A stretch of 64,000 bases of DNA from assembly GCA_016722945.1 (NCBI GenBank), contig JAEQMT010000010.1, positions 265,765 to 329,764 of the forward strand, read 5' to 3'. Shown here one piece after another: positions 36,677 to 56,559 of the stretch (positions are counted from its first letter, which is position 1; the number at the start of each line of letters is the position of its first letter). This DNA comes from Desulfofustis sp. PB-SRB1 (GTDB lineage Bacteria; Desulfobacterota; Desulfobulbia; Desulfobulbales; Desulfocapsaceae). The notes under the pieces are model-generated. The model was given only the letters and a program-made list of their open reading frames with translations, was not told where the DNA came from and ran no database searches. Position numbers and translations under genes: made by a program.

Positions 36677-37474
36677 ATGACTGAGAATTCTCCTGCCACC
36701 CGACGTGCTGCCCTTGAAAAACTGGCAGCCCTGCTGCGTTACCAGCAGAGCTGCGGTATTGAACGCTACGGCGATGCGGAGCAGATCCGGGAAGCCTTCG
36801 CCCGTCTGCGCACCCAGCTTGCCAAGCCCGCCGTAAACGAGACGCTCGTTTCATCGGCACCGGCGCACCCCATCGAAGCATCCGAAGTGCCGGCCGTTAC
36901 CCCGGCGGTAAAAACCATTGCTGAGCTGGCTTCGATAATCAGCAGTTGTACGAATTGTGAGCTGCATTCACGTCGAATCTACGATACCGCCGGCAGCACT
37001 ACCACTGAGCCCCGTCTGCTTATTGTCGGCGGTTGGCTGGATGAGGTTTCGGCCCAATCGCCGCGCTATCTGTTCGGCGCACAAGAAGATGAGATGGTGA
37101 AGCGGATGCTGGCAGCCATTTCACTCTCACCCGACGAGGTCTTTATCACCAACCTGATCAAGTGCGCCGTAGCCGGTAAGAACGTTCCCACCGATGTACA
37201 GACTCAGAGCTGTTTTGGCCACCTCAAAAATCAGATCGAACTTCTCGTACCGCGCTGCATACTTGCCATGGGAACGCGCGCCGCCCATTTCTTGTGTGGT
37301 TCCAGCCAGCCGTTGAGTGGGCTGCGCGGCCGGTTTCATTTCTATACCACGGCCTCGGGGCGGCGTATCGAGGTGCTGGCTACCTACCATCCTTCCTTTC
37401 TGCTGGCCAACCCTGAGATGAAAGCCGCCACCTGGAGCGACCTGCAGGTCTTGCAGAAACGGCTCAATCGTTAG
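36677..37474 (+). CDS. Uracil-DNA glycosylase superfamily protein, motif A altered
   Basis: 265 residues. An N-terminal extension of about 80 residues precedes a family 4-like core. Four cysteines in the Fe-S pattern are kept: C91 and C94 (CTNCELH), C163 and C179 (C-x15-C). The C-terminal HPS motif (TYHPSFLL) is present. The catalytic GEAPGxxE motif is replaced by VGGWLDEVSAQSPR (117 onward), so standard uracil excision is doubtful. It may bind DNA or have another glycosylase specificity. It overlaps the end of the convergent PqqD-like gene by 11 bases. Confidence 0.8.
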   Translation: MTENSPATRRAALEKLAALLRYQQSCGIERYGDAEQIREAFARLRTQLAKPAVNETLVSSAPAHPIEASEVPAVTPAVKTIAELASIISSCTNCELHSRRIYDTAGSTTTEPRLLIVGGWLDEVSAQSPRYLFGAQEDEMVKRMLAAISLSPDEVFITNLIKCAVAGKNVPTDVQTQSCFGHLKNQIELLVPRCILAMGTRAAHFLCGSSQPLSGLRGRFHFYTTASGRRIEVLATYHPSFLLANPEMKAATWSDLQVLQKRLNR

Positions 37475-37913
37475 TAGATGAGGTGGGAACGGCTTGCAGC
37501 CCCACCAGACCCCTTTTGCCCAATTGCCGTAAAAACAGGGTGATGGAATGCTCAGCCTCCTGATTACTGATACCGTGGGCGGCGGCGAATGAGGTGATGA
37601 TGTCGGCGGTGGTTCGGGAGCCGTCCATCAGTTCCCATACCTCAGAGCCGAACTCATCGAGTTCCAGGGTGCGGCGGGGCCGTTCGACGACTCGGTTATT
37701 GTTGAAACGATTGAGGATGGAGATGAAGAAGGGCTTTAAGGCCAGCTCGAAATCAAGGCGGATTTCCCCGGTGGCGGTACGCTCCCAGCGCACCGCTTCG
37801 TTGCGAACGGGGATGCAGGCCAGTGCCTGGGCACGGGTGAGGGGTTGTTTTTTTAACCGTTTTCTAAACAAGGCGATAGTTGTCGGCGACGGTGGTGACG
37901 AGATCTTCGGCAA
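37464..37913 (-). CDS. PqqD-like peptide-binding protein
   Basis: 149 residues. An N-terminal extension of about 75 residues (basic, then RFNNNRVVERPRRTLELDEF) leads into the PqqD core: LDEFGSEVWELMDGSRTTAD then AEHSITLFLRQLGKRGLVGL. PqqD domains bind leader peptides for radical-SAM enzymes or stand near peptide transporters. No radical-SAM gene is in the window. It is last in the 20-kb minus-strand run and overlaps the preceding gene by 50 bases. Confidence 0.85.
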   Translation of the reverse strand: MPKISSPPSPTTIALFRKRLKKQPLTRAQALACIPVRNEAVRWERTATGEIRLDFELALKPFFISILNRFNNNRVVERPRRTLELDEFGSEVWELMDGSRTTADIITSFAAAHGISNQEAEHSITLFLRQLGKRGLVGLQAVPTSSTND

Positions 37914-38703
37914 ACGGCGCCTTGCCGCGCAGGGTGAATCCGATTATCCGATCCCGATTCTCATCCAGGGTGAAACGCGCCCAGATAAATGGTTTGCGGC
38001 GGCGCAGACGCATTCTGATCTGGCCAAATGGTGACGGGGCGGAAACATATTGGACGGTGCCGGCATTAGCCTGAAAGGTGTCCGCCGGACTGCATTCGCA
38101 AAATTCGGCAAACAGTTCGGCCAGTGTCTGCCGTTTCAGCCTCGCCGAGGCGGGCGCCACCTTAACCAACCGCAGCTCGACGGCGCCGTGATGAAAGACC
38201 ATAAGGGTGAGCCCGAATTGGAACGAACTGCTGGTCAGCGAAAATCCTTCGGGAACCACGAAGCTGAGATCATGAATCAGCCACGGCTTTTCCGTGGGGG
38301 CGCGGCAATTGCAAGAAATATCGAGCAGTTCTCCGCTCCGGCTCTCGGGCCTGTCAAATATTTTTACCAGAAACGGCGTCTGACATGTACGACAGTAGAG
38401 CAATGCTCCGGCCGGCTCACCCGGCAGTGATACGGGGTGAACGGTAAATGATTGCCGGACGTTTATGAACCAATCCCCAATATCAGCGGATGCACCATCT
38501 TGGGCCAGGTTCTCACCGAGTTTGGCCGCCATTTTTTTGCGGCTGCGGGCCGAGCTTTTGCTCTTGCTGTCCCACCGAATTTCCAGCATCGGTTTGACGT
38601 CTCGCTCAAATATGAGATGCCTATTCTCGCGTACTATTGACTGCCAGGTTAGTGGGGTGCTTACCGTGACGCCATTCCAGCATACAGTCACAGACGGTGG
38701 CAT
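37864..38703 (-). CDS. Conserved unknown protein paired with PqqD
   Basis: 279 residues. The opening VCWNGVTVSTPLTWQSI...LEIRW is a recurrent N-terminal pattern (WNGV...P..W...L.W) in uncharacterised proteins encoded next to PqqD-like genes, which favours the start at 38703 over an internal ATG at 38589. A mid-region with CRTCQTPF and CNCRA may hold a metal. The C-terminal half is beta-rich. It overlaps pqqD-like 37464 by 50 bases, implying coupled translation. No function is known to me. Confidence 0.75.
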   Translation of the reverse strand: MPPSVTVCWNGVTVSTPLTWQSIVRENRHLIFERDVKPMLEIRWDSKSKSSARSRKKMAAKLGENLAQDGASADIGDWFINVRQSFTVHPVSLPGEPAGALLYCRTCQTPFLVKIFDRPESRSGELLDISCNCRAPTEKPWLIHDLSFVVPEGFSLTSSSFQFGLTLMVFHHGAVELRLVKVAPASARLKRQTLAELFAEFCECSPADTFQANAGTVQYVSAPSPFGQIRMRLRRRKPFIWARFTLDENRDRIIGFTLRGKAPFAEDLVTTVADNYRLV

Positions 38704-38716: not shown

Positions 38717-39307
38717 CTACCGGGGAATCAGATAATCCCAGTTCGATTGAGCCTGTTTTGCAAGAGCGTCTTTGAGCTCTTCTGGTTTGTTCAGCTCACA
38801 CTGCGCAATAAAGCACAATCGCTCGCGCTCTTCCAGTTCAGGATAAGAGAGCTTGACCATGTTGCCGATATTGAGGTTGTGATCCATATGATTGTGTTGC
38901 AGATGCATCACTACCTGATTACCCGATTCATCGGTAAATGACCATTTCCAGACGTAGTTTATCCCAAATGCATCACCCTTCCACTCATCCGGTTTGCCGT
39001 ACCGTTTCTTGAATTCTTTAAGCAATTTCTCATAGAATTCCTGGCTGTCGTCCTCATATTTCATCTTGATTCTGATGATTGTGCCGGGCAACTCACAGAT
39101 TCCGTAGTAAACCGTCCCTCTGCGAAAGCCGTGCCAGTCAGTCACCACAACTTCTTTCAGGTAATTGGTATATTCGACGTCTGGATAATCGGTGATGTCG
39201 GTGCCGAGCTTGAACCCGCCAACCTCCAGTGGTACGTTTTCGGCCAATACACCGGCGGGTATCGTCATACAGCCGATGAAGATGGTAAGATAGAATAACC
39301 GTATCAT
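38717..39307 (-). CDS. Secreted protein of unknown function
   Basis: 196 residues with signal peptide MIRLFYLTIFIGCMTIPAGVL (cleavage after LAE or nearby). The mature part starts with VGGFKLGTDITDYPD, a pattern seen in periplasmic proteins that track substrate or envelope stress, and contains YGKPDEWKGD and a His-rich strand (HLQHNHMDHN). It lies 10 bases after the cyclic-nucleotide-binding gene, inside the large minus-strand run. It is probably periplasmic; function unknown. Confidence 0.75.
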   Translation of the reverse strand: MIRLFYLTIFIGCMTIPAGVLAENVPLEVGGFKLGTDITDYPDVEYTNYLKEVVVTDWHGFRRGTVYYGICELPGTIIRIKMKYEDDSQEFYEKLLKEFKKRYGKPDEWKGDAFGINYVWKWSFTDESGNQVVMHLQHNHMDHNLNIGNMVKLSYPELEERERLCFIAQCELNKPEELKDALAKQAQSNWDYLIPR

Positions 39308-39317: not shown

Positions 39318-39851
39318 TTAGATAAGTGCGGCGGCTCCCTTTACATCTCTGTAGAGCAGTTGGTCGAGCATGAAATCGGTCTGGCTCACCAGCCGATCCA
39401 CCCGCAGCTGGATCAGCCGTTCGATGAGGGTGTCTTTCTGATCGGGATATTTTTCACAGATCTTCTGGAAAGACATTCTGCTGATGGCCAGAACATCCAC
39501 ATCGCCGACACAGACGGCATTGAAAAACCATTTGAAATTGGCAAGCAGGGCGAGTTCACCGAAAAGGACGCCGTCGCCAAGTTTTTGCAACAATACTTCT
39601 TGTTCACGGTGGTTCACGGAGATATGCACGGCACCGTTTACGAGCAAAAAGGCATGCTGGGCCTGTTCATCCTGGGTGATCAAATAATCGCCATCGCGAA
39701 AATTTTTACGTTCCGAAAGATAGGCGAACATACGTACGACGTCGGAAGTAATGCCTTTGAACAGCGGCACGTGGTGCAGCCGCTCGAGATCGCCGGCCAG
39801 TCTGCACCTCTTGCGATCAATCCCCGGAGCTGCTGTCGTTGATGAGTCCAT
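39318..39851 (-). CDS. Cyclic-nucleotide-binding domain protein
   Basis: 177 residues from the ATG at 39851 (MDSSTTAAPG), overlapping the exporter gene by 35 bases; the frame is open to 39899. The beta-roll of the CAP/cNMP domain runs from about 25 to 140: VPLFKGITSDVVRMFAYLSE, YLITQDEQAQHAFLLVNG and DGVLFGELALLANF, the phosphate-binding cassette with GE. No DNA-binding HTH follows, so it is not a CRP-type regulator. The overlap with the ABC exporter suggests it gates that protein in the manner of fused CNB-ABC exporters. Confidence 0.86.
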   Translation of the reverse strand: MDSSTTAAPGIDRKRCRLAGDLERLHHVPLFKGITSDVVRMFAYLSERKNFRDGDYLITQDEQAQHAFLLVNGAVHISVNHREQEVLLQKLGDGVLFGELALLANFKWFFNAVCVGDVDVLAISRMSFQKICEKYPDQKDTLIERLIQLRVDRLVSQTDFMLDQLLYRDVKGAAALI

Positions 39852-42393
39852 AAAGCACACCTCGTTGTGTGAGAAGATCGGCGTACGTTCCTGATTCAAC
39901 GATTCTACCGCTCTTCATAACTACAATATGATCATATCCCGAAATCATGTCAAGACGGTGAACAACCGCTATAACTGTAGTGTTATCAGATAGTTGTGAT
40001 TCTATATAAGCCTGTACGCGGGCCTGTGAACTATTGTCGAGGCTGGCCGTCGCCTCATCTAAGATGAGGATCGGCGACTTCTTCAGAAAGGCCCGGGCAA
40101 TGGCAATCTTCTGCTTCTGGCCGCCGGATAGATTATCCCCCTTACTGCCCACATGAAAATCAAGGCCGATATCGATGATCGCCTTGATCAGTCCGGTGCG
40201 TTCAAATTCCTCGAGCACCAGATTGTCGAGGCGGGCCCAGATGAGATCCTGGTTGATGACGTTGCCAAATAGTATGTTGTCACGCAAAGAGAGGCCCGGC
40301 AGGTAGCGGCTGGTGCAAAACGGGGTGTAACCACTCAATCCTCGCTGTTCATCGCCGCCCGCTACCCCATTGAGAACGCCAATGTCGGTTTGCAGGGTGG
40401 TGCCGGCGCAGAGACTGAGATCGATATCGGCAATGTCCTGGAGAAAGACCAGACGTGATGCGATGATTTCTTCTTTGAAATCATCACGTAAGGTGGCGAT
40501 TTTGTGAATACCGGGGATGAAATCCAGTGCCAGCCGGAGGAATTTGTCCCGATTCTTGGTGTTCAGCGCGGTGAATTGCTGTTTGCGGACTTTTTCCACC
40601 AGTTTTTCGAAATCATCGAAGTCGGTGTGATTCATCGGGCTGCCCTGAAAGAAAAACTCGTCGTCCTTGAAGTCACCGAGAAAATCGGTGGTGGCGGCGC
40701 CAATGGAAAAACCAAGATCATAGAGCATGACCTCGAGTCCCTGATCTTTGAGAAATGACCTGAAATGCTGGTGACTGATCAGTCTTTCGGTGGAAGAGCT
40801 GTCGCTGAATGTGCCAAAGGTCAGATTTTCGGAGATGGAGGAGAAATCGAGATAGGCGTCGGTGTCGTAGAATTCCACCGCGACACTGAACTCGTCGCGA
40901 AATTTGTCCAGGATGATGCGCCGCATCGCCAGAAAAGGAGCGGCCATCGACTCGGCGCGACCATCAGAAATGACGGAGCTGAGCCCCCATCTGATCACGT
41001 CAGCCGACAACCCCACCGCTTTGATGATGTCGGCGATTGCCGCACTGTCGGCGACGGCCGGGCGGACATCGTTGAGATACAGGGCATTGCTGGAATAAAG
41101 GACATTGTCGCGGACGGTGCCGGTGAAAATGAAGGGGTGTTGCGCGACACTGGCGATATTGCTTGATATTTCAGTTTTGCTCAATTCTTGTACCGGCACG
41201 CCGTCAATCGTCATGGTGCCGGAGGTAGGGTGGTGCAGCTGGGCCACCAGCAGACTCAGGGTGGACTTGCCGGAACCGGAAAACCCCACCAGCGCCATAT
41301 GTTTGCCGGCCGGCAGGTGAAAGCTCACATCGTTGAGCAGTTGAACCCGGTCGTTAACGCTGTAACAGATATCTTTCGCCTCGATTTCACCTTTGAACCG
41401 GCGCACCGTCTGCTCCGGTGCACTGAGCAGAAACTGCGGCTGCACATCAAAAAGCTGTATGATCTGGGCGTAACGTACCCGGGAATCCTGGTAAAGCTGG
41501 TAATATTCGATGACCTCCTTCCAAGGGTCGTACACCTTTTCATAGGCGGAGAGAAAGGCGAACAATGCACCGAGAGTGAATTCGCCGTTAATGGCGAGGT
41601 AGCCTCCGATCAGAAAGAGCAGAAACGGGCCGAAACTCTGAAATAGATTGTTGCTGAACTTGATGCCGTATTTGACCACGGCCAGTTTTACCACCAGTTT
41701 GTAGAGCCGCTGGATAATCCGGTCGAGCTTGTTCTGCTCCAACTCAAAGGAAGCGCTGCCCTGTACTTCTTGGATGCCGCTCACCGCCTCGTTCACCATG
41801 CTGGCGAGCTCCCTGTTGGCGGCCACCCGCTTGCGGTTATACCGGTTATACCAGCGTTGCAGCAGGGGTATGATCACCAGTTCGATGGGGTAGATCAAAG
41901 CGGTGATAAAACCCAGCAGCGGGTTGAGGTAGACCATAAAGCCGAGAAAAACCACGAAGGTGAGAAACGAAGATATCGGGATGGCCAGCGCCCCGCCGAG
42001 AAAGGAGCCGATGGCGTTGAGCTCGGCGCCCATGGCCGAGACGGTGGTACCGGTCTGGGTGCGGTGAAAAAAGCTCAGCGGCAATTGCAGCAGGTGCTGG
42101 TAGATTTCCCGGCGCATCCAGATCAGAATCTTCTGGCCGATGGCCTCCTGCAAAACGTTGGCGCCATATTTCATCAGTCCGGCGATGATGATAGAGCCCA
42201 TGTAGAGGCCGCAATAGAGATAGAGCGCGTCGAGCATGCGCAGATTGATGGCAATGTTGACGATCCGGCGCTGCATCTCCAGGGGAAAGACGCGAAAGAA
42301 CAGACTGGCCACGATTATTGCAAGCAGCAGCAGTTGCAGCCCGCGATAGCGATGCAGCACCCAGTAGAAGAGTGGGCGCCTGGTCAGTTCCAT
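39817..42393 (-). CDS. ABC exporter with a large insertion in its ATPase domain
   Basis: 858 residues, against about 600 for a usual half-exporter. Residues 1-315 are a type IV exporter membrane domain with six helices. The ATPase starts near 335: Walker A GFSGSGKST (370-378), first Q-loop VAQHPFIFTGTVRDN (Gln418). Only much later come LSGGQ (755-759), Walker B ILILDE (775-780) and the H-loop (H812). About 280 residues lie between Q-loop and signature. The insert repeats Q-loop-like phrases: SSISENLTFGTF at 518-529 and LPGLSLRDNILFG at 698-710. All catalytic motifs are intact, so ATP use is likely. Cargo unknown; the glycosyltransferases in the run point to a glycan or lipid. Confidence 0.88.
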   Translation of the reverse strand: MELTRRPLFYWVLHRYRGLQLLLLAIIVASLFFRVFPLEMQRRIVNIAINLRMLDALYLYCGLYMGSIIIAGLMKYGANVLQEAIGQKILIWMRREIYQHLLQLPLSFFHRTQTGTTVSAMGAELNAIGSFLGGALAIPISSFLTFVVFLGFMVYLNPLLGFITALIYPIELVIIPLLQRWYNRYNRKRVAANRELASMVNEAVSGIQEVQGSASFELEQNKLDRIIQRLYKLVVKLAVVKYGIKFSNNLFQSFGPFLLFLIGGYLAINGEFTLGALFAFLSAYEKVYDPWKEVIEYYQLYQDSRVRYAQIIQLFDVQPQFLLSAPEQTVRRFKGEIEAKDICYSVNDRVQLLNDVSFHLPAGKHMALVGFSGSGKSTLSLLVAQLHHPTSGTMTIDGVPVQELSKTEISSNIASVAQHPFIFTGTVRDNVLYSSNALYLNDVRPAVADSAAIADIIKAVGLSADVIRWGLSSVISDGRAESMAAPFLAMRRIILDKFRDEFSVAVEFYDTDAYLDFSSISENLTFGTFSDSSSTERLISHQHFRSFLKDQGLEVMLYDLGFSIGAATTDFLGDFKDDEFFFQGSPMNHTDFDDFEKLVEKVRKQQFTALNTKNRDKFLRLALDFIPGIHKIATLRDDFKEEIIASRLVFLQDIADIDLSLCAGTTLQTDIGVLNGVAGGDEQRGLSGYTPFCTSRYLPGLSLRDNILFGNVINQDLIWARLDNLVLEEFERTGLIKAIIDIGLDFHVGSKGDNLSGGQKQKIAIARAFLKKSPILILDEATASLDNSSQARVQAYIESQLSDNTTVIAVVHRLDMISGYDHIVVMKSGRIVESGTYADLLTQRGVLYGLINDSSSGD

Positions 42394-42451: not shown

Positions 42452-44410
42452 TCAGTAGGCCATGTAATTGAGGGATTTCATGATCAGCGCAAATCCCATG
42501 GCGAACATACCGGTGAGCCCCATGCCGCAGGAAAATCCGGCCAGCAGGACGGGGGCATACTGGCGCCACATGGCGCCGTATTTCTTGTAAAAATAGTAGC
42601 GCCCCAGCAGGGCGCCGATGACCTCGAGAATCAACCCGTGCGGGGTGGACTGGCCAAGCCCGCGGACAACCCCGTAGATCAGCAGGACCGGCAGCCCGAA
42701 GATGGAAAGAATCCCATAGGCCAGCAGCCCCAAGCCAAGGCCTGAGAATACGGTAACGCCGTTGAGGGCCTGATAAAAGGCGGAGTTACCCTCCAGGGTC
42801 GAGGTTTGCATGAGCAGGGTGTTGAGGGCCTGCAGATGCCAGAGTTCCTGGGCGTAGGGATAGCTTGCCGAGGGAATTGGGGCAAGGCGCCATATAAACT
42901 GGGAAAAGAGCAGGCTGGCAATCATCACCACCGGAAAGACGATGATTTCCGCCTTGATGATGCCGCGAATCGAGGTGCCGGTGAGTTCTATCTGGCGAAA
43001 CTGGACGGTGGCCTCGCCGTAGTTGTGAATGGGGATGGGGGCATACCAGATCTCGATGCCCTGGTAGCCGAAAAATCGGGCGCCGGCAATGAAACTCGCC
43101 TCTCTGACCAGCGGCAGGCTTACGAACTGGCCGGCAATACCCTCCATGCGTGCGGTGATATAGGAGATGATCGGGGTATAGATAAACCCGTAGGCGAGAA
43201 AGAAGACCCACGGAAAAGAGGGCACCAGCCAGACGCACATTCCCACATAGGCCAGGGTCGAAAAGAAGTAAATGGCAATCGATATCCAGAAATTGAAATC
43301 CCCCCGTCCGGGCGGCGGATTGAACAGGTCACCCAGACTGCCGCGGCCGGCGCCGGCACTCTGGAATGAGCGGACCACCGACCAGACGCCGATGACCCCG
43401 ATGGCAAGGCCCAGGCCGATGCCGAAGCTCATGTAAAAATCAAAATTGTTGGCGAACACCGTATCCACCGTGGCCATGCCGGGGTGCCAGCGGTGCAGGA
43501 TGCCCTGGGCATAGAGGATGGGGTTGGCGATAATGGTTATGAGCAATCCCACCAGCCCGCCGATGACCGCCCAGAAGGGCAGTACCATACCCACGAATAC
43601 CAGGCCCAGATCAAACTGCAGGCCGGTGGCGACGGCGGGCAGCACCCCTTCGGTGTAGGAGGTGAGCTCTATCCATGGTATCGGAATCAGCCGGATGGGT
43701 TCGGTGAAGATCAGCCCCGAGGCTACCGGCAGCAGCACGTAGACCGCACCGAATACCAGGCCGATGACCGAGCCAATGGAAAATACCCGCCACTTCCACC
43801 CGGCCTTTTTTTCCTCGGTGGATTCGGCCAGCGCCATTGTCCCCAAAGCCGCCACCGGCGCCATGGGAAAGGGGAGTTTCTCCACGTCGGAGGTGATTCG
43901 GTACAGGGCGTAGCCAAGGCCGAAGTGATCGATGCGTTGAATGATCTGCGAGCCCACCAAAAGCAGGATGGGAATGAGCCAGTCGCGGTGGAAAAAGGTG
44001 CGCTCGATCATCGACATCGATTCCGCGCCCGGTGCCACCCAAGTGGGAATGTACTCAGTGAGACCCAGCATCCTCGCGGCATCCGACTGCACCAGATACT
44101 GGCTCCATAAAAGTCCGGAAAATGGCGAAGCCAGGGCCGCCCCGGCCATGTAGTAGAGCAGGAATATCTCCTGCTGCTTGAGTTCGGAATGGGCCCGCTT
44201 GGCGATTTCGGCAAAGAGAATAATGGTCACCCAGCGGGCCGCCGGCCCGATACCCTGGCCGATTACCAGTTGCAGGTACATGGAGCCGGGCATCATCAGA
44301 AAACCGATGAAAACGGCGCCGAGGATGGTCTTCCAGTCGAATCCCTCTTCGAAGTGATCCGGCGTCGGCAGCAGATCCCGATATTCCTTGAGTTCCTTGT
44401 CGTCGTACAT
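42452..44410 (-). CDS. OPT-like large membrane transporter, first of two
   Basis: 652 residues, about 14-16 membrane helices. A short cytoplasmic N-terminus (MYDDKELKEYRDLLPTPDHF) leads into MMPGSMYLQLVIGQGIGPAA. The overall layout recalls oligopeptide-transporter-like proteins associated with DUF6785/DUF6784, but it is diverged. It begins 1 base after the stop of its partner 44412 and ends 58 bases before the exporter. The two probably form one complex. Substrate unknown; peptide or glycopeptide is a guess from the distant family. Confidence 0.72.
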   Translation of the reverse strand: MYDDKELKEYRDLLPTPDHFEEGFDWKTILGAVFIGFLMMPGSMYLQLVIGQGIGPAARWVTIILFAEIAKRAHSELKQQEIFLLYYMAGAALASPFSGLLWSQYLVQSDAARMLGLTEYIPTWVAPGAESMSMIERTFFHRDWLIPILLLVGSQIIQRIDHFGLGYALYRITSDVEKLPFPMAPVAALGTMALAESTEEKKAGWKWRVFSIGSVIGLVFGAVYVLLPVASGLIFTEPIRLIPIPWIELTSYTEGVLPAVATGLQFDLGLVFVGMVLPFWAVIGGLVGLLITIIANPILYAQGILHRWHPGMATVDTVFANNFDFYMSFGIGLGLAIGVIGVWSVVRSFQSAGAGRGSLGDLFNPPPGRGDFNFWISIAIYFFSTLAYVGMCVWLVPSFPWVFFLAYGFIYTPIISYITARMEGIAGQFVSLPLVREASFIAGARFFGYQGIEIWYAPIPIHNYGEATVQFRQIELTGTSIRGIIKAEIIVFPVVMIASLLFSQFIWRLAPIPSASYPYAQELWHLQALNTLLMQTSTLEGNSAFYQALNGVTVFSGLGLGLLAYGILSIFGLPVLLIYGVVRGLGQSTPHGLILEVIGALLGRYYFYKKYGAMWRQYAPVLLAGFSCGMGLTGMFAMGFALIMKSLNYMAY

Positions 44411-44411: not shown

Positions 44412-46406
44412 TCAGTCTGGCAGGACCATGTAGCTGGTGTAGGTGAATTGACCGATAATGGCCCAGATGCCGCCCATGAGCAGATCGCCGATAATCAGAC
44501 CGATAAAGAAGAACTGCATTTTTTTAAAGAGGTTTACGCCACCATACTTCATGCACAGCACGTTGCACAGCCAGCCGATGAAAAAGCTCACCCAGAGAAT
44601 GCGCATGGCCGAGCTGTAGGTGGTCAGATAGCCGATCGGGTGCAGTGGCCACCAGGGCAGACGATGATAGCAGAATACCAGGATGAGCATAACCACGGCG
44701 CCCACGAGAATGAAGGTATAGACCCATTCACCGGGGTTGACCGGGTTGACCAGCAACCGATAGACATTTTCGTAGACATTGAGGGTGGTGCGGTTGGCCC
44801 ACTCGAGATCCAGTTCGCGCATGCCGAACCGATAGGCCAGTGCCATCATTGCCGTCATTGAACAGATCACCGACACAAACAGGGTGGCGACCAGACCGCC
44901 GGTGAGCAGAGCCGGCGGCGTGCGGCCCTGGTGGATTTTCTTGGCATGCAGCAGTGACGGCATCAACGATTCACGCATGTCCAGAAACAATGCCTTCTGG
45001 CTGATGGCGCCGATCAGGCCGCCGGCGCCGGCAAAGAATTTGGCGCCGAACAACGCGATCAGGCCGTCCAACGGGGCGATGGTGAGCGTGAAATAGGCGA
45101 TCCCGCCCTGGCAGATGATCCGTGTCGCCACCAGGCTGATCACCAGAAAGCCGCCCACCAGAAGGATCGCTGCCGGTCCGCTTACTCCGTGGCGGACAAA
45201 CCAGAGGGTAAGCAGCAGGCAGGCTCCCCAGAATCCCCAAAAGACCATAACGGTGGAGTTGAACCGGGTATCGCTTGGGCCTCGACTGATGAACAGCGCC
45301 TGTTTCGTGACATCGAGCAGATGGTGGCGGGCGAGCCAGACGAGAAAGAGAAAGAAAATGGCGAATGCACCGATCATCTGGGTTTCTTCCGGCCGCGTCA
45401 GGGTGGGGCCGAAGGTGATGCCCAGCTGGGCGGCGGGGATGGTATAGCCGAGCATGGCGAGAATGCCGAATAACAGCGAACCGGCCATGAAAAAGAACCA
45501 GAACGAAAAGGATATCTGCCGCGAGGTGAGGTAGGCAAAGCCGATGAAGGCCGGATAAAAGTAGAGTTTAAGCTTGTAAAAGCCTGACAGAAGGCCCTCT
45601 TTCGGGAAATATTTTCCCGCCAGGATGAGGGTGGGAATAGCCGGAATAGAGGGGTAGTAGAGGCTTAATCCGTTAAAGGTGTGGAGCACCACCGGCACCG
45701 CCAGGCCCACCAGCAGGAAGCGGTTGAAGAGCAACTCACCGATCCAGTTCTGGTCCACGCTGGTACTGATAAGCTGAGGGACTTTGAGCAGCGGCAGGTT
45801 GAGTCGCTCGTTGACGATCCACTGGCGGCTAAAAAGGGTGATGAGCATGAGCATGGCCAGATAGGAGGCGAACACGAAAATCGCCCAGTTCATCAACGGC
45901 GGCAGCCAGCCGGCCCAGGGAATGGCGGCCAGTACCTCCACCCAGTTCATGGCGCGGCCGCCGGGCAGCCCGTCGTAGAGCAGCGCAATGGTTTCCGGAT
46001 GGCGCGGCATCAACGACGACGGCAGCAGCGGATCAAATGTTTCCCGCCATTGATTGGAGGCGGTGGCAAAATGAACCGGGGCGGTGAGATTGATGAGAAA
46101 GGTTCGAGCCAGACCGGTATAGGCGATGCCCGAGCCGATCACCATCTGAATCCATATAATCAGAAGTTCGGGGCCGCTGAGCAGGGGGCGGGAGCGAAGC
46201 AGACGGGCGATGACCGACACCACCACGGCGAGGACAAAAAAGATGAAAAACGGGGCCAGTGGAAAGTGGCCGCCGCCCAGCGGGGTAGCGCGGTTGTAGA
46301 TATTGTTGAGTGGCGTAACCGCGCAGATAAGACCCGCCAGGACAACGCCCAGCACCACCGGCCATATTCTGATTCGGCCTGGTTCACGGGTTTTGGCGGC
46401 GGTCAC
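44412..46406 (-). CDS. DUF6785/DUF6784-like OPT-related membrane protein
   Basis: 664 residues from a GTG at 46406 with AAGGAG 6 bases upstream. About 14 membrane helices; recognisable blocks are GSGIAYTGLARTFLINL, the long NWIGELLF loop, and WWPLHPIGYLTTYSSAM near the end, the DUF6784-type signature. This family sits in the oligopeptide-transporter superfamily. It lies between the pseudo-peptidase/FtsX fusion and its smaller partner, with gaps of 9 and 1 bases, so the three are surely co-translated. Confidence 0.78.
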   Translation of the reverse strand: MTAAKTREPGRIRIWPVVLGVVLAGLICAVTPLNNIYNRATPLGGGHFPLAPFFIFFVLAVVVSVIARLLRSRPLLSGPELLIIWIQMVIGSGIAYTGLARTFLINLTAPVHFATASNQWRETFDPLLPSSLMPRHPETIALLYDGLPGGRAMNWVEVLAAIPWAGWLPPLMNWAIFVFASYLAMLMLITLFSRQWIVNERLNLPLLKVPQLISTSVDQNWIGELLFNRFLLVGLAVPVVLHTFNGLSLYYPSIPAIPTLILAGKYFPKEGLLSGFYKLKLYFYPAFIGFAYLTSRQISFSFWFFFMAGSLLFGILAMLGYTIPAAQLGITFGPTLTRPEETQMIGAFAIFFLFLVWLARHHLLDVTKQALFISRGPSDTRFNSTVMVFWGFWGACLLLTLWFVRHGVSGPAAILLVGGFLVISLVATRIICQGGIAYFTLTIAPLDGLIALFGAKFFAGAGGLIGAISQKALFLDMRESLMPSLLHAKKIHQGRTPPALLTGGLVATLFVSVICSMTAMMALAYRFGMRELDLEWANRTTLNVYENVYRLLVNPVNPGEWVYTFILVGAVVMLILVFCYHRLPWWPLHPIGYLTTYSSAMRILWVSFFIGWLCNVLCMKYGGVNLFKKMQFFFIGLIIGDLLMGGIWAIIGQFTYTSYMVLPD

Positions 46407-46415: not shown

Positions 46416-49400
46416 TTAGACGGCCGCAAAGGAATCGGTCAGCACCTTGAATTGGGAGCTGAACCGCTGGTGGGTCTGGTTATCCATGGAACGCCAGATC
46501 AGCAACTGCTTGCGCAACTGGTGAATAAATTCCGTGTTGATCCGCCGCCATTGCCCGATTTCTCCTGATTCACGCCGCACACTGAGCCTGATTTCCAGAT
46601 ATGAAAGATTGTCTCTGGCCGGACAGAATTCGATGTCGGCCCGCTGCATGATACCAAAGTCAAAAGGTGCCAGCCAGATTTTGGAACGCAGATGGATGCA
46701 CTGGTAAGCACATGGATCCTGGCTGTCGCGCACCGCATTATGGATATCTTCAACCGAAGTACAGGCGTGGATCAGTTCCACCGCATCGGCCGCGAAGGCA
46801 CCGTGGGAGATGTCCTGATGAGAGCTGAAATATTGGAACAAAAAACCGCCGATGGATTCGCGCTCCTCATATTTCATGTAGAACGGCAGGGTTACGGTGA
46901 TCGTGTCGTTCACCGGCTCGGGCAGATTGAAGGTTCGCTTGACATCGGGAATAGCGATTCGAGCGGCGACCCGGGCCGGATAGATAACCGAGATCAGCAC
47001 CACCCCCATCACCAGAATCATGGCCGCAACCCCGGCCATGGAAGAGTAATTGACCGTTATTCCTTCCCAGAAGCTGGTGTCGGCCAGGATCGCGGCGCTT
47101 ACCTGGGCGACGAGATAGCCCACCACAACCGAGATGACGGCCAGGGCCATGGCCTCGGCGACAAAGAGAAATCCCACATGAGACGGGGCGAGGCCCACCG
47201 AGGTGTAGATGCCGATCTCGCTTTTCCGCTCATAAACGGAGCTGATCATGGTGTTGAGCACGATCAGGATAGAGATCAACAGCGGAATGATGATGTTGGG
47301 TACGCCGCTGTACCCCATGGTGTCGCTGAGGTTGTAAATCCACACGCCGTCGTCGGTGCCGGCGAAAATAGCGAGGCTGAAACGGTCCACCAGCTGGGAG
47401 GCCACCGCCGAGACATCGGTATTTGGGTCGGGCCTGATCGCCACGCTTTTGAGGCTGCCGCCCATGGCCAGCGCTGTTTTGGCCGGTATGAACCCGCTCA
47501 AACTGCCGGGAATGTGGGTATATCGGCCCTGAAACCCGCGAATGTCGTCACCCTCCTCCATGGCCTCGAATTCCACGTCGGAGAGTTCCTCGCTCATATC
47601 GTCGGGAAAGGTAACCGGGGTTAGCGGTTCACCGTCGAGATCGACCTGAGTATCCAGGGCGTCACCGTCGAAGATGCCGATCACGGTGAACGGCGTACCC
47701 CACAATAAAATGGATTGTCCGGGCGTCACGCCGAGTTGAGCGGCGCTGGACTGAGACAGGATGATTGCCTGGTAGTCTTGCCGGGTGAACCAGCGGCCTG
47801 AGCTGAGCAGGGCGTCAAGACCGGTTACCTCCGCTTCCACATGGCTTACCCCGACAATCCCCTGCAGTGAAGTCGTGCGGCTGCCCCGGCGCAGCGGAAT
47901 AAAGAGCGGGCGGGTGGGTTCGGCTGCCTCCAGCCAGACGCGCGGCGCCGGGTTGGAGATATCTTGCATGGAGCCGGCCAGGATTTCGGTGGCCTGCGGC
48001 GGCATCGAACGCCAGTTCAATTTTTTCAGGAGCAGGCCGCGGTAGGGCGTGTCCGGGCTGTAAAAGAGGCGGTTTTCCTGCACGCTTGATTTGACCGTGG
48101 TAAAGCTCATGATGGTAAAGGTGAGAATTACCAGGGTGGAACAGGTGAGGATGGTTCGCAGCCGTCGCCGCCGTAAATTCGCCACGCCCAGGAAAAAGGC
48201 GGCGACAAAGGCCTTCCAGCGGCTGATTTCGGCGGCGCTGAGCTGGCTGGCGTGGCGCTGGAGCAGAATCATCTCCTGTTCGAAACGGAAAAAGATGATC
48301 AGGGTTACCATGAAGGATAAGCCGATGATAAAAAATGCAAGGATCACCACCATGGGGCTGTAGGCCAGCTCAAAGGCGGGATGGACGTTGTAGATAATGG
48401 CGATGAGCGCCACCAGGATGGCGGTAAACGCGACGATGCGTTTGTAGATATTGGCATAGCCGAAGAGAAAGCGCTCCATGCAGAAAGCGAACGGGACAAA
48501 CAGCGCGATATAGAACAGCACCCCGAACAAGACATCTTTCTGGGTCTTTTCAATCTGATTGTAGACCCGTGCCGCCAGGGCCAGCGCCTCGGAGCTGTTT
48601 TCCCGAAAGTCGGTGTAGTTGAGTTCGTCGAGACTGCGCAGGCTCGCCGCCAGGGCCTGAAGACCCCGTTCCTGGAGATTTTCGATCCGGTCATCGTGGA
48701 TGCCGTGCGACTCGAGGTTCATAATCCGCGGGGTCAGCAGGCGCCAGGCATCGAAGGCCGCCTGATGCACTGTGTTGATGATCCGCGGATAGGATTGCAC
48801 CGGGAACCCGCGTCCCATGGGGAACTCTTCGTCGGCGTTGGTAAGTATGAATTTGCGGGTGAGGACGTTGTCCGAGAGGGTCAGTTTGAGCCAGGCACCG
48901 GGTTCGAGGTAGATAGACGAGATGATCGACGATCTGGTGTCGATACGGCTGTACCAATAGCGCTGCGGCGGGGCGTCGCGGCGGCCGTCATAGAGGTAGA
49001 GCTTGGTCATGAATTCCAGGCTGCGCGGCTCCAGCAGGTTGAATATGGTGGTTTCCCGGCAGTTGAACATAATCAGCCTGGTCTTCATGGCGCGGCGCTG
49101 TAATTTGACCCGGTAATTGTCCTTGCCGGTCTCTTTTTTGTCGATGGCCCAGATAACCTCGCCGGTCTGTTCATCGAAGCGGTAGCCTTCGATGATGAGC
49201 TTGTCGAAGACGTTTTTCTTGTCGGCAATTCCCTTGTAGAGAAAACTGCCGTCGCTGTTGATGGAGCCATAGAGTTTGGCAATGCCCTGGTATGAGAGCA
49301 GGGTGGCGCCCGCCGCCGGGTAGTCGGCAAACAACTCTCCCTGCAGCAGCAGGTTGGCGTTGCCGGTGACGCTGGAATAGCCGTTGCGGGGAAAGGTATC

Positions 49401-51203
49401 GTTGTGCAGGGCCGGCGCCACCGTCAGGGCGCTGATCAGGTCGGTGGCAAGGCGCTGCTGGTCGTTTGCATAGCCCCAGTTGACATGCTCCACCGTATCC
49501 CAGGGCGTACCCCAACGTGTTCTGCCGTCATCCACGGTAGCCAGGGTAAGGCCGATATAGCCTGCCAGTGAACTCACCTCGCCGCCCAGAAAGGGGCGAT
49601 CGAGAAAATATGAATCCCAGCTGCGCAGCCTGCTGGGGCGCAGCGAGTCAACATAACGCGCCGTACCTACCGGCGCCGTTGCGGCCGTTTGTAACACCTC
49701 TGCCATGGTGCTGAAGATGGCGGTACGGTTGATGCGCGGCCGGAGCTGATAGAGCCAGCCGCGGTTAAAACCGCCGACGCCGTCGCCGTGGCTGGAGAGA
49801 TGCAGGGAAACAGTGGCCGCGATTTCATCGAATTCACGGGTGAGGGCGCGAAAATCCCGGGCCGATTCCAGCGTTGCCAGTCGTTCGGAACTGTCGGCGA
49901 TGCGGGACTCCATGGTGCGGCGAACGGTCGGCAGCAGATCCACGAGCAGTTGTTGGTGCTGTTTGTCGAGATCATGAAAAGTGGATTGCCAGCTTAATTG
50001 GCGCAGGGCAAATCGGCGTTTGGCCAGGGTATCGATAAGGTTCTGGTCGGCGGACTCACTTTGCTGCAAACGCAGGTTCATGAGGCGGCGGGAGATCTGG
50101 TCGATGGTGAATTTGAGGTCATTGCCGATCACCGTCGCCAATTGACGGTCGCGCTCCATATCGGCTTGCAGGGGAAAGCTGAGCTCATCCAGCAGGGCGA
50201 TTCCGCTTTTTGATTGTCTGATGGTTTTTTTCAGCTCCCGTTCCTGGTCTCTGAGCAGCTTGCTGCGTTCCTGCAGCGACCAGATAAGATCACGCATCCC
50301 ATGCAGGGACTGGGCGTGGCCGGCGGTGGCCACCAGCATGATGCTGCGCCCAGGCGGGTTATAGGTGAAATGATCGGCCAGTTGCAGCAGATTTGCCACC
50401 GACAACGCCTCATCGGCGCCTGGCGAGCGGCCGGCGACGTATCTGGTAGAGTCGTAGAACGCCTCGATGATGATGAGTTCGTCTTTGAGCTCAGGGTCGC
50501 GGCCCTCGATTACGGTATAGATGTTTTCGGCACTATGGTTGCGCCAGGTGATCCGCGAGTTGATAGTAGCGTTATCGCCCACCAGCCCGTTCTGATACTC
50601 GGCAAGCTTACCGAACAGCACGTCGGCACGCTCTTTTTCCATCCAGAAACAGGGGAATTGAATCGGTGAGAGTTCTTCTTTTTCGCGGAAAAAGCTGTTA
50701 GCCACGGTTCTGCCGTCATCTATGTAGATCACGGCTTGTGCGCCCAGCGAGGCGGCGGTGAGCCAGTTGCGGCCGGAGGTGAAATCCATCAGCAGGATGG
50801 CGCCGTTAATGAGCTTGCCGTCGAGATGTTCCAGAGCGCCGTCTTTCACGTAATAGAGGGGTGCCCCCTCCATTTCGGTCACCGTCTGTGGAGTGATTGC
50901 ATTGTAGAGCAGCGGAGTGAGGGCAATGGTTTTGCCGTTTACCTCAAGAACGCTGTCGCCCACCTCTCTGACCGGAATGGGAAACTTGTAAATGCCCGGG
51001 GCAAGGCCCCGGGTGGCAAAATAGTTCTCGATGTATGTTGCCGCGGCCGCGGCGCCATCGGAGCCGGTGCTGCGATCGCCCAGTGCGGCCAGATCGGTGA
51101 CGATGGTCTGCAGATCGTTTGCCGAAGCCGTCGAACAGGTGGCCCCGACAAGGGTAAGCGCCAGCCAGGCGCAACAACTGATGGTGAGACTGAAAGACTT
51201 CAT
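46416..51203 (-). CDS. M28 pseudo-peptidase fused to an FtsX/MacB-type permease
   Basis: 1595 residues. A signal peptide (1-28) is followed by an M28-like domain (30-310): AENIYTVIEGRDPELKDELI then EAFYDSTRYV and PGADEALSVANLLQLADHF. M28 enzymes need HxD, a D in GADDN, and EE; here the first His is F249 and the EE pair is absent (VATAGHAQSL), so zinc proteolysis is unlikely. Coiled-coil and beta-rich periplasmic parts follow. Membrane helices near 900-985 and an FtsX-type permease module (about 1020-1450) come next, with IYTSVGLAPSHVGFLFVAEA as its signature. A cytoplasmic tail of about 140 residues ends the protein. It starts inside the ATPase stop (ATGA) and is clearly its permease partner. 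Confidence 0.82.
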   Translation of the reverse strand: MKSFSLTISCCAWLALTLVGATCSTASANDLQTIVTDLAALGDRSTGSDGAAAAATYIENYFATRGLAPGIYKFPIPVREVGDSVLEVNGKTIALTPLLYNAITPQTVTEMEGAPLYYVKDGALEHLDGKLINGAILLMDFTSGRNWLTAASLGAQAVIYIDDGRTVANSFFREKEELSPIQFPCFWMEKERADVLFGKLAEYQNGLVGDNATINSRITWRNHSAENIYTVIEGRDPELKDELIIIEAFYDSTRYVAGRSPGADEALSVANLLQLADHFTYNPPGRSIMLVATAGHAQSLHGMRDLIWSLQERSKLLRDQERELKKTIRQSKSGIALLDELSFPLQADMERDRQLATVIGNDLKFTIDQISRRLMNLRLQQSESADQNLIDTLAKRRFALRQLSWQSTFHDLDKQHQQLLVDLLPTVRRTMESRIADSSERLATLESARDFRALTREFDEIAATVSLHLSSHGDGVGGFNRGWLYQLRPRINRTAIFSTMAEVLQTAATAPVGTARYVDSLRPSRLRSWDSYFLDRPFLGGEVSSLAGYIGLTLATVDDGRTRWGTPWDTVEHVNWGYANDQQRLATDLISALTVAPALHNDTFPRNGYSSVTGNANLLLQGELFADYPAAGATLLSYQGIAKLYGSINSDGSFLYKGIADKKNVFDKLIIEGYRFDEQTGEVIWAIDKKETGKDNYRVKLQRRAMKTRLIMFNCRETTIFNLLEPRSLEFMTKLYLYDGRRDAPPQRYWYSRIDTRSSIISSIYLEPGAWLKLTLSDNVLTRKFILTNADEEFPMGRGFPVQSYPRIINTVHQAAFDAWRLLTPRIMNLESHGIHDDRIENLQERGLQALAASLRSLDELNYTDFRENSSEALALAARVYNQIEKTQKDVLFGVLFYIALFVPFAFCMERFLFGYANIYKRIVAFTAILVALIAIIYNVHPAFELAYSPMVVILAFFIIGLSFMVTLIIFFRFEQEMILLQRHASQLSAAEISRWKAFVAAFFLGVANLRRRRLRTILTCSTLVILTFTIMSFTTVKSSVQENRLFYSPDTPYRGLLLKKLNWRSMPPQATEILAGSMQDISNPAPRVWLEAAEPTRPLFIPLRRGSRTTSLQGIVGVSHVEAEVTGLDALLSSGRWFTRQDYQAIILSQSSAAQLGVTPGQSILLWGTPFTVIGIFDGDALDTQVDLDGEPLTPVTFPDDMSEELSDVEFEAMEEGDDIRGFQGRYTHIPGSLSGFIPAKTALAMGGSLKSVAIRPDPNTDVSAVASQLVDRFSLAIFAGTDDGVWIYNLSDTMGYSGVPNIIIPLLISILIVLNTMISSVYERKSEIGIYTSVGLAPSHVGFLFVAEAMALAVISVVVGYLVAQVSAAILADTSFWEGITVNYSSMAGVAAMILVMGVVLISVIYPARVAARIAIPDVKRTFNLPEPVNDTITVTLPFYMKYEERESIGGFLFQYFSSHQDISHGAFAADAVELIHACTSVEDIHNAVRDSQDPCAYQCIHLRSKIWLAPFDFGIMQRADIEFCPARDNLSYLEIRLSVRRESGEIGQWRRINTEFIHQLRKQLLIWRSMDNQTHQRFSSQFKVLTDSFAAV

Positions 51204-53501: not shown

Positions 53502-54671
53502 TTACCTGTTTGTGCTTTGCGCCAGTGTGATGCGCTCGATCAATGCCGCCGTCTGTTCGGCGCCGTTGAGGTCGATATCGACGGCGGTGGGAATCGCGTG
53601 GCTCATGCTGGCTATGCTTTCAGCCAACACCCGTGGCTTGAGATCGTTTTCTTCTATCATTTTGATAGTTCCATACGCCGCCAGTTTTTCAACCCGCATC
53701 CGCTGTTCACGGTTTTGCGCCAACGGATAGAGCAGGGCCGGTACGCCCGCTGCCAGGACATTCATGCAGCTGTTGTAGCCGGCCATGGAAATGCACAGAT
53801 CGGCGGCGGCCAGCCAGTCGACGTATTGGTCGGTGAACCGCTCAACCCGGATGTACTCGGTTTGTGCATCGCACAGCGCCGCAAACTCGGCATCGCTTAG
53901 ATATGGTCCGGTAAAGAGCTGTATGTGGCAGCGGGTGGGCTCAGGCAGCAGACCCCAGGCCGCTACCACCGCATCAAGCAGTTCGCCGCCGACGCTGCCG
54001 CTGCCGATCGCGGCGACGATGAGTTTTTCATCATCATTTCTGATTCGTTGGGCGCGGATGGTGCGAGCTGTGGCTTTGCTGGGCAGCGGTGTAATGAAAC
54101 CGGTATAGTGCCGGGGTACGCGCAATTGCGCCGTTTTACCGAAGGTTTCCTCAAATTGGACGAAGCGCTGGTCGGCGTGAATGAGGATTGCGTCAAAAAA
54201 GCGATTGACCGTGTCTACCGCCCGTTGCTCGAATTTCTCTTTTCCCTGCACTTTTTCCACCAAGATATCGCGCACGCTGCAGACAATTGTGCATGATCCC
54301 GGCTTTGATTTACAGGTGCTGAGCAGGGGATCGAGTTCGAAGCGAAAAGCCTTGCGGCCAAACGGATACAGTTCTACAACCAGACAATCCGGATTGAAGG
54401 TGTCCACCAAGTCCTGCAACAGCTCTGTACGCCTGGTTTTGATCGCATCACCATCGGCTTTGGGGTCGCAGGGAACGAGGCCGCTGAATTGTTCATCCAT
54501 GCGTAGACCAGGCAGTTGCAGCAGGGAAATACTCGGTTCGTTGATCGTCAGTGGGGGGCCGCCCATCACCATCACCACCTCGTGGGAGCGTGCACAGGCC
54601 CGGCATATCTGGATGCTGCGCTGGACGTGGCCGATACCCAGCACGTGCTGGCAATAGTGGAGGATTCTCAC
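53502..54671 (-). CDS. COG4671-type glycosyltransferase, second copy
   Basis: 389 residues from a GTG overlapping the phosphatase stop (GTGA). MurG/GT28-like fold: HYCQHVLGIGHVQRSI (nucleotide-sugar entry loop near residue 6), IVAAIGSGSVGGELL, and the donor site SMAGYNSCMNVLAAGVPALL. Same family as the enzyme at 56560, though diverged. It transfers a sugar from a nucleotide donor in the cytoplasm. Confidence 0.85.
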   Translation of the reverse strand: MRILHYCQHVLGIGHVQRSIQICRACARSHEVVMVMGGPPLTINEPSISLLQLPGLRMDEQFSGLVPCDPKADGDAIKTRRTELLQDLVDTFNPDCLVVELYPFGRKAFRFELDPLLSTCKSKPGSCTIVCSVRDILVEKVQGKEKFEQRAVDTVNRFFDAILIHADQRFVQFEETFGKTAQLRVPRHYTGFITPLPSKATARTIRAQRIRNDDEKLIVAAIGSGSVGGELLDAVVAAWGLLPEPTRCHIQLFTGPYLSDAEFAALCDAQTEYIRVERFTDQYVDWLAAADLCISMAGYNSCMNVLAAGVPALLYPLAQNREQRMRVEKLAAYGTIKMIEENDLKPRVLAESIASMSHAIPTAVDIDLNGAEQTAALIERITLAQSTNR

Positions 54672-55282
54672 AACGGCTCGATATTCAGTTGCTCGATCGC
54701 CAGGCTACCCTGGTCGGCGGATATGATGTGCATCCGGTTTTTCCAGGCTATTTTAGGTTCGCTGGGGAGGTAATCGCGCCCCTCAATATGGCGCAGCAGC
54801 GCGTTGATCACCCCCAGATGGGTGATGATGAGGATGTGCTGGGACGCTCCTGACTGGTGCCGAAGCAGTGCCGCACGCACCCTGTGTAACATCTCCGTCC
54901 GGCTTTCGCCGGAAGGCGCCCGAAACTCCCAGCCGGCCTCGATCTGGCGGGCCAGTTCGGCCGGAGCCTGGCTTTTTAATTCAGGTAGACTCATGCCCTC
55001 CCACGCCCCCCAGTTCATCTCGCGCAGCTCTTCGTCAATTTCCACCGGCAGTTCAAGAAATTCGTTGATAATGGCGGCGGTGGTTTGTGCCCGTGGCAGG
55101 GGGCTGACGACAATTTTCTGCCACGGCGGGGTCATGGTCTTGAGAAACGCTCCCCAGCGGCGGCTGGTCTCTTTTCCCTCATCGGTGAGAGGCGAGTCAC
55201 CACTGCCTTGAATGCGGTGTTCCTGATTCCAGATTGTTTTTGCGTGGCGGAGCAGCCCGAACCTGGTGTAAGCGTGTTCCAT
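54668..55282 (-). CDS. Histidine phosphatase (phosphoglycerate-mutase fold)
   Basis: 204 residues from the ATG at 55282; a TTG at 55291 would overlap the upstream gene. The catalytic motif is LLRHAKTIWNQEHRIQGSGD, with the second His in IIITHLGVIN and LPRAQTTA between. Broad family of phosphomonoesterases; set among glycosyltransferases it may act on a sugar-phosphate intermediate. It ends inside the start of the next gene (GTGA). Confidence 0.88.
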   Translation of the reverse strand: MEHAYTRFGLLRHAKTIWNQEHRIQGSGDSPLTDEGKETSRRWGAFLKTMTPPWQKIVVSPLPRAQTTAAIINEFLELPVEIDEELREMNWGAWEGMSLPELKSQAPAELARQIEAGWEFRAPSGESRTEMLHRVRAALLRHQSGASQHILIITHLGVINALLRHIEGRDYLPSEPKIAWKNRMHIISADQGSLAIEQLNIEPL

Positions 55283-55287
55283 AGCGA

Positions 55288-56559
55288 TCAATGGACTCTT
55301 TTCCGTGGACAGAGCAGCGGGTTGCCGGTTTGAAACAATTGGGCCAGCTCAACGATAAGGCGGCTGTTGTCAAATGATGTGTGCACATGGTTGAGCCCCT
55401 CTTTGATAACGCTTTGTCGCAGCGAATCATCCTCGATCAGGGTGATGATTGCATCGGCCATACCATTGCTGTCCTCCGGTTCAACCGCCAAGCCGGTCTT
55501 ACCGTTTATGATAATCTCCGGCAAGGCCGAGACGGTGGTGGCAACGGCCGGCACCCCCATGGCCAGACTCTCGACCAGCACATTGGGAATGCCGTCCCGG
55601 TCACCGTTTTTTGCCACCGTGCAGCCAAGTATAAAGAGATCGCTTTTTTCAAAATAGCTGAGCACCTCTGCGTGGGTGAGGGTGCCCAGCAGGTGACAGT
55701 GGCGGTCAAGGCCCATATCGTCGATGAGCCTGGCGATGGTTTCACGTTCCTCGCCGGTGCCGATAAGATAGTGGATGAACGGCAGGCCGCGCTCTTTGAC
55801 AATCTTAAGCGCTTTATAGACAGTGGGCAGTCCTTTTTTGGCGGTGATCCGGGCTACGGTAAGCAGCTGATACGGTGGACGCGGTTTTCTGTCGGGGCGT
55901 TTCGGTCTGAAGAGCTCTAGATCGATACCGTGATAGAGGCAGTGAATCTTGTCGGCGGCCTCACCGGCCAGGTTGTCGAGGTAGCGTTTATTGTAGCGTG
56001 TGCAGGTGGCGGTGAAGACGGCTTTGGTGCATTTCTCGCGCAATAGCTCAGGTCTGGATGTGTAGATGTCTTTGGCATGCGCGGTAAAGCTGAAGGGCAG
56101 ACCGGAAAGCATCGAGGTAAACAGGGCCACCGAGGTGGGAGAATGGGCAAAATGGCCATGCAGGTGCACGATTGAGGGATCTTTCCGCAGGTGTTCGTCC
56201 ACCAGAAAACCGGCCTGCAGAAAATGTTTGATGGTGGCGATTTTGCCACGTTTTTTGAAGCGGCCGATGGCAGTACGCAGTACCTGTCGGTAGGGAGATG
56301 GATTGTCGTGCAGCAGCCGTCCATTTGCTCGCAGCAGCACCGCCAGATTCATCCACAACCGGCTGGGCAGGTAGTCAACCCGGGCCTGGATGCGGCTGAC
56401 CGAGTCGTGGCGGAAAGACTCACGGGGATGACGCATGGAAAAGAGCCGGAGGGTAAAGCCCATCTGCTCCAGCAGAAGAATTTCATTTGAAATGAAGGTT
56501 TCCGATATGCGCGGATAGCCCTTTAAGATATAGGCTAATGTTGGTGGTGGATCACCCAT
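55288..56559 (-). CDS. GT4-family glycosyltransferase
   Basis: 423 residues. The N-terminal acceptor domain opens LAYILKGYPRISETFISNEI, a phrase common in capsule and exopolysaccharide GT4 enzymes. The C-terminal donor domain has LLTVARITAKKGLPTVYKAL and the EX7E-type segment NVLVESLAMGVPAVATTVSA followed by PEIIINGKTGL. The start follows the previous stop directly (TAGATG), so translation is coupled. Confidence 0.92.
   Translation of the reverse strand: MGDPPPTLAYILKGYPRISETFISNEILLLEQMGFTLRLFSMRHPRESFRHDSVSRIQARVDYLPSRLWMNLAVLLRANGRLLHDNPSPYRQVLRTAIGRFKKRGKIATIKHFLQAGFLVDEHLRKDPSIVHLHGHFAHSPTSVALFTSMLSGLPFSFTAHAKDIYTSRPELLREKCTKAVFTATCTRYNKRYLDNLAGEAADKIHCLYHGIDLELFRPKRPDRKPRPPYQLLTVARITAKKGLPTVYKALKIVKERGLPFIHYLIGTGEERETIARLIDDMGLDRHCHLLGTLTHAEVLSYFEKSDLFILGCTVAKNGDRDGIPNVLVESLAMGVPAVATTVSALPEIIINGKTGLAVEPEDSNGMADAIITLIEDDSLRQSVIKEGLNHVHTSFDNSRLIVELAQLFQTGNPLLCPRKRVH

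Follow-up and report, generated by a model that had tools for sequence, protein, structure and literature searches.

The window, by which we mean the whole stretch of 64,000 nucleotides from Desulfofustis sp. PB-SRB1 that was analysed, encodes an ABC exporter with a single ATPase domain in which, as profile comparisons indicate, the segment leading from the Q-loop through the helical subdomain occurs in three homologous copies. Because this design is conserved in many related sulfate reducers and a CNB-fold protein accompanies it almost constantly, the exporter is probably no one-genome oddity but a pump that moves a surface sugar compound under regulation. Our favoured reading, to which we assign a probability of roughly 0.55, is that of a glycoconjugate exporter in which the insert would act as an enlarged helical-subdomain regulatory platform; both the regulation and the substrate are proposed from context. 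The on/off switching of ABC pumps inside cells is poorly known, and the family offers a natural test system, as it combines an enlarged version of the very subdomain that connects the membrane part with ATP hydrolysis and a dedicated sensor-type partner; its rhizobial genes occur in strains that are easily handled in the laboratory. The features of the exporter and its partner are as follows.

39817..42393, minus strand: ABC exporter, 858 aa, with a membrane domain and a single ATPase domain split by the insert (Pfam, AlphaFold)
41434..42393, minus strand: transmembrane domain, residues 1-320 (PF00664 at 23-282; helices in the model)
41260..41286, minus strand: Walker A GFSGSGKST, residues 370-378 (motif positions; conservation)
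40252..41094, minus strand: insert, about residues 434-714, 281 extra, exact ends alignment-dependent (spacing; folds alone)
40969..41157, minus strand: copy 1, residues 413-475, holding a strand, the canonical Q-loop, GTVRDNVLY and the initial helices (matched by profile to copies 2 and 3)
40678..40878, minus strand: copy 2, degenerate, residues 506-572, with VEFYD strand, SISENLTFG and helices (profile match to copies 1 and 3)
40336..40428, minus strand: variable low-confidence loop, residues 656-686 (pLDDT; 23% identity)
40144..40329, minus strand: copy 3, residues 689-750, with strand, LSLRDNILFG and helices running to the true signature (profile comparison)
40117..40131, minus strand: signature motif LSGGQ, residues 755-759 (S756-Q759 invariant in 46 aligned relatives)
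40048..40071, minus strand: Walker B ILILDEAT, residues 775-782 (D779-T782 invariant in the same relatives)
39318..39851, minus strand: CNB-fold protein, 177 aa from an ATG overlapping the exporter gene (PF00027; cassette alignment)

The open reading frame at 39817-42393 of the minus strand comprises 858 codons in a single frame and contains the stretch 40240-41140 (residues 418-718), which the first-pass annotation had correctly singled out. Pfam matches were obtained to ABC_membrane (PF00664; 4e-35, residues 23-282) and to ABC_tran (1.6e-29). The exporter-type membrane domain lies N-terminal to the ATPase domain, which is the architecture of MsbA and Sav1866, and the structural alignment of the model to known exporters spans residues 5-856. 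Exporters of the MsbA/Sav1866/TAP type are the best structural matches and likewise fuse a membrane domain to one ATPase domain with all catalytic motifs; unlike them, the window exporter has about 281 extra residues between Q-loop and signature. Against TIGR02203, the family of MsbA proper, the protein scored 319.6 bits, below the curated cut-off of 602. Judged from its sequence, it is best explained as a homodimeric-type ABC exporter, with one complete set of ATP-site motifs per chain.

Walker A, Q-loop (Q418), LSGGQ, Walker B and H-loop (His812) are all present, and G370, S372-G375, K376 and T378 of Walker A are, like the signature and Walker B residues listed above, invariant in the 46 aligned relatives, which bears out the earlier statement that the catalytic motifs are intact. 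No full-length Desulfobacterota member in the alignment has lost Walker A, LSGGQ or Walker B. Walker A and LSGGQ begin at residues 370 and 755, as first reported. The resulting spacing of 385 residues (family median, 363) compares with exactly 104 in six ordinary exporters from the window genome and related genomes, so that the insertion after the Q-loop amounts to about 281 residues; the initial estimate had been about 280.

The relationship among the three segments was assessed by HHalign. When residues 408-480, 498-572 and 682-752 were paired with one another, the probabilities came to 93, 91 and 96%, and the value for copies 2 and 3 rose to 97% when the preceding helix was added; because the profiles were run pairwise, these values are best read against a control segment located between copies 2 and 3, which matched the copies at <6%. 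By this measure the likeness of two further phrases, SENLTFGT (residue 521) and LRDNILFG (residue 703), to the Q-loop phrase exceeds chance, and the suggestion that parts of the ATPase had been duplicated and remodelled takes the form of three homologous copies of a Q-loop/helical-subdomain segment within one ATPase domain. Profile comparison revealed no recognisable sequence relationship between the second half of each repeat and the true signature helix. Copy 2 is trailed by extra helices up to about residue 655, and the loop at residues 656-686 is long in the window's clade only and short in the sister clade. One locus, L018 (7604-9676, a 691-residue frame), has a Walker A to LSGGQ spacing of 208 and is missing the copy 2 region alone, as expected from a modular repeat. 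Searches with the insert only, proposed at the outset, returned no credible Pfam family in 20 members, no convincing sequence match among PDB profiles and no Foldseek match below E 2.5, an absence that does not prove a new fold; the relationship that emerged is that of the copies to the exporter's own helical subdomain.

The full-length AlphaFold model of the exporter has a pLDDT of 83 and a pTM of 0.77, with values mostly near 90 in the insert except for the loop at residues 664-681 (mostly <50). Predicted alone, the insert is well folded and helical (pTM 0.82). The TAP1 ATPase domain aligns with 248 of its 251 residues at 1.9 Å over model residues 321-853, leaving about 285 residues unaligned, which argues for one ATPase domain with an excursion. 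Two complete ATPase domains, an outcome that the first-pass annotation had allowed for, were thus rejected, since this alignment and the insert-alone model show one. Copy 2 aligns with helical-subdomain stretches of CFTR (residues 494-565; Z 5.0, 70 residues, 3.0 Å) and Atm1 (residues 524-595; Z 4.5, 70 residues, 2.4 Å), the top two among the re-aligned chains, both on model residues 511-654. Matches with Z of 4.5-5.0 are weak alone, and they agree with the profile result on the copies. The first-pass annotation had put the insert beside the helical subdomain; it lies in that subdomain itself. We read the anatomy as three helical-subdomain segments in tandem, the middle one worn and extended.

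Near-full-length relatives with 46-63% identity were found in eight related genomes among 38 searched, together with a second subfamily that is about 40% identical. Within the phylum, 20 of 297 genomes had a match to the insert profile. When named genomes were scanned with a profile built from the sister clade (the 20-row insert alignment is too diverse to serve such a scan) and with other phyla under-sampled, 67 loci were obtained, almost all from Desulfobacterota. The insert is intact across dozens of Desulfobacterota loci and occurs in a diverged form in Alphaproteobacteria. dN/dS was about 0.10 for the insert, 0.06 for the membrane domain and 0.03 for the signature half, values that indicate purifying selection on the insert. 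A tree built without the insert, for which the method warns of long branches, sets all insert-bearing proteins apart from ordinary exporters as one clade (SH-aLRT 100), divided into an alphaproteobacterial and a Desulfobacterota subclade (support 85).

The CNB-fold protein, which could alternatively start at a TTG (39899) to give 193 aa, matches PF00027 at 1.2e-17 and 64.1 bits, above the gathering score of 27.5. Its gene is the next gene on the same strand at 75 of the 82 Desulfobacterota loci with enough sequence, two of the 82 having been entered twice under different identifiers (L012/L088 and L014/L097), and usually overlaps the exporter gene. It is again directly next in rhizobia and Phyllobacterium; the exporters of Azospirillum, Ruegeria and Tritonibacter carry the CNB protein as a C-terminal fusion. 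That the pairing has held across two phyla is strong evidence of a working pair. An adjacent CNB gene is absent at seven loci, at six of which the insert is full-length (L016, L017, L020, L051, L092 and L095); the genome of L092 has a second exporter copy, L052, with a CNB gene.

At the phosphate-binding Arg-Ser/Thr site the window CNB protein reads FKWFFNA, with Trp-Phe replacing Arg-Ser and the Glu kept. The cassette is broken in this way in the window's clade. Sister-clade CNB proteins have usually lost the Glu and the Ser/Thr; the full cassette (Glu plus Arg-Ser/Thr) is kept in 0 of 59 Desulfobacterota CNB proteins tallied, and a canonical one was found in the rhizobial CNB type only. Since the window cassette is broken, a cyclic-nucleotide response by the usual chemistry is unlikely: the protein probably does not sense cyclic nucleotide through this cassette, and a different ligand is possible. 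The link to the adjacent cNMP-binding protein drawn in the first-pass annotation therefore holds insofar as the partner is genuine (75 of 82 adjacent, three fusions), while the response to cyclic nucleotide is doubtful because the cassette is degenerate. In a distance-correlation test the CNB protein tracked the insert no better than the membrane domain (partial r 0.24 versus 0.27). A literature search found no paper on this exporter family or on ABC-CNB pairing.

The neighbouring genes in the window are listed below.

37464..37913, minus strand: PqqD-like (peptide-recognition-like) protein, recurrent neighbour (PF05402, 7e-11)
37864..38703, minus strand: 279 aa protein, no Pfam family, recurrent neighbour
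38717..39307, minus strand: 196 aa secreted-looking protein, no Pfam family, recurs near the exporter in both clades
42452..44410, minus strand: 652 aa polytopic membrane protein, no Pfam family, recurrent neighbour
44412..46406, minus strand: DUF6785/DUF6784 membrane protein, recurrent neighbour, 19 related loci
46416..51203, minus strand: 1595 aa fusion of M28-peptidase-like and MacB/FtsX permease parts, recurrent near the exporter at other loci
51200-51937, minus strand: LolD-like ATPase
51952-52731, minus strand: FtsX permease
53502..57810, minus strand: region of three glycosyltransferases (53502-54671, 55288-56559 and 56560-57810)
54668-55291, minus strand: histidine phosphatase among the glycosyltransferase genes

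Fifteen minus-strand genes follow one another from 57810 down to 37464, closely packed with gaps of no more than about 60 bases; a scan of the region for promoters and terminators gave counts near chance. The window glycosyltransferases match those upstream of the rhizobial exporter-CNB pair in the same order (about 44, 35 and 33% identity), and downstream of the Azospirillum exporter are annotated glycosyltransferases, a histidine phosphatase and a polysaccharide deacetylase. From these neighbourhoods we infer that the substrate would be a glycoconjugate produced by the glycosyltransferases nearby. The PqqD fold is known for the binding of peptide leaders; no obvious peptide-modification gene is among the identified neighbours. 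A reading as a defence system was set aside, the PADLOC matches looking like generic ABC or CNB hits.

In the sister clade the operon order is exporter, CNB, HATPase (RsbW-like) and STAS (RsbV-like), often with a SpoIIE-type phosphatase near (L039-L105). CNB, RsbW and RsbV genes are all present at 44 of 71 sister-clade loci, with the domains confirmed; only same-strand RsbV genes were counted, because the RsbV cluster also took in spurious antisense ORFs. Homologues of the genes for the 652 aa membrane, 196 aa, 279 aa and PqqD-like proteins lie convergent to this operon, so that the association of the window's flanking genes with the exporter holds in two arrangements. The neighbourhood search detected no RsbW or RsbV gene near the window exporter.

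The alphaproteobacterial homologues, annotated merely as 'ABC transporter ATP-binding protein' (for example a S. meliloti pSymB-type gene), share the insert, the CNB partner and nearby glycosyltransferases with the window exporter and differ from it in lost ATPase motifs, a canonical CNB protein (rhizobia) and a cyclase gene in the cluster. In all eight members examined (L022, L023 and L106-L111) the lysine of Walker A and the glutamate of Walker B are missing; the seven listed in the motif table have lost the Q-loop glutamine and LSGGQ as well. The insert is retained despite these losses. In the rhizobial members conservation is highest in the membrane domain (76%). Three rhizobial-type records have an adenylate/guanylate cyclase gene upstream in the same cluster (L118, 10003-11352; L120, 5700-7043; L121, 3687-5024). 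The scaffold thus appears, on sequence grounds, to have been turned into a non-hydrolysing membrane component; as the sample came from plasmid records only, ATPase-live forms may exist. The roles would then be reversed between the groups, with a live pump and a worn sensor in Desulfobacterota and a dead pump and a live sensor in rhizobia, and such reciprocal wear raises the question of the shared function, if this is not simply ATP-driven transport.

Additional segments within an ABC ATPase domain are also seen in CFTR, UvrA, ABCF and Rad50. The CFTR regulatory insertion is disordered and lies at a different position from the exporter insert; UvrA, ABCF (arm) and Rad50 (coiled coil), which have insertions near the signature, are soluble proteins and not exporters. 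We know of no triplicated helical subdomain among these insertions. A parallel in regulation may be E. coli MlaF, whose helical subdomain is bound by the STAS protein MlaB (PMC7367683). As with MlaF-MlaB, a small regulatory-type protein is paired with an ABC ATPase, STAS genes lie near the sister-clade exporters, and the helical subdomain would be the regulatory site. MlaF differs in having by description a canonical ABC fold and in belonging to the Mla lipid system, whereas the constant partner of the exporter is a CNB protein.

We propose that two tandem duplications inside the ATPase domain tripled the stretch that runs from the Q-loop through the helical subdomain. Copy 1 retains the working Q-loop and copy 3 leads to the working LSGGQ; the degenerate middle copy, with its extra helices, forms a helical extension. 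In ABC proteins the helical subdomain lies between the ATP site and the coupling helices, contacts the latter and rotates upon ATP binding. Enlarged, it could serve as a regulatory platform through which the CNB protein, in the sister clade together with an RsbW/RsbV partner switch, would set the activity of the pump, and the exporter would move a glycoconjugate supplied by the neighbouring glycosyltransferases. An allosterically controlled pump is the simplest view, because the enlarged helical subdomain, the near-constant CNB protein and the STAS/kinase neighbours occur together. More tentatively, these proteins might represent a new mode of ABC control, in which the triplicated subdomain docks a CNB-fold protein, often RsbW/RsbV too, and gates a glycoconjugate exporter, the alphaproteobacterial scaffold being ATPase-dead and read by a cAMP- or cGMP-type sensor.

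The insert could instead be architectural, stabilising the dimer or bracing it on the membrane side without any part in regulation, the CNB protein acting elsewhere, for instance at the C-terminal end of the ATPase. The alphaproteobacterial fusions join the CNB protein at that terminus and not at the insert, its covariation shows no preference for the insert, and the six CNB-less loci retain the insert in full. However, the insert sits in the very subdomain through which ATP hydrolysis is coupled to transport, and L018, the sole locus with a short insert, is also without a CNB gene, albeit as a single case; we regard this explanation as rather unlikely. We consider it distinctly improbable that the protein is mainly a membrane sensor or scaffold, in which ATP binding would gate signalling via the CNB protein and the partner switch, with transport secondary or absent. 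The signalling nature of the RsbW, RsbV and SpoIIE neighbours would suit such a role, as would ATPase-dead alphaproteobacterial versions whose membrane domain is nevertheless best conserved in rhizobia, but in Desulfobacterota the catalytic motifs are all invariant and conservation peaks in the signature half, as a working pump would show.

Repetition of Q-loop-like phrases is also what the remnant of a second fused ATPase domain might leave behind. Neither a second Walker A nor a second Walker B is present, the helical-subdomain segment alone being repeated, and an origin from an unrelated enzyme domain is opposed by the empty Pfam (20 members) and PDB profile searches; both origins are very improbable. 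Fusion of two genes by a frame shift or assembly artefact, against which the first-pass annotation had cautioned, was rejected as barely credible: dozens of independent assemblies, complete chromosomes among them, show the identical single frame, and nothing was found in favour of such an error. Regulated export by way of the enlarged helical subdomain remains our preferred reading.

Two loci deserve separate mention. S. meliloti SMb20813, named an msbA homologue in PMC10945364, is probably the insert-bearing, ATPase-dead homologue of that species. A contig labelled Candidatus Aminicenantes (L044) carries a locus very like the Desulfobacterota ones, and its label is probably a binning error.
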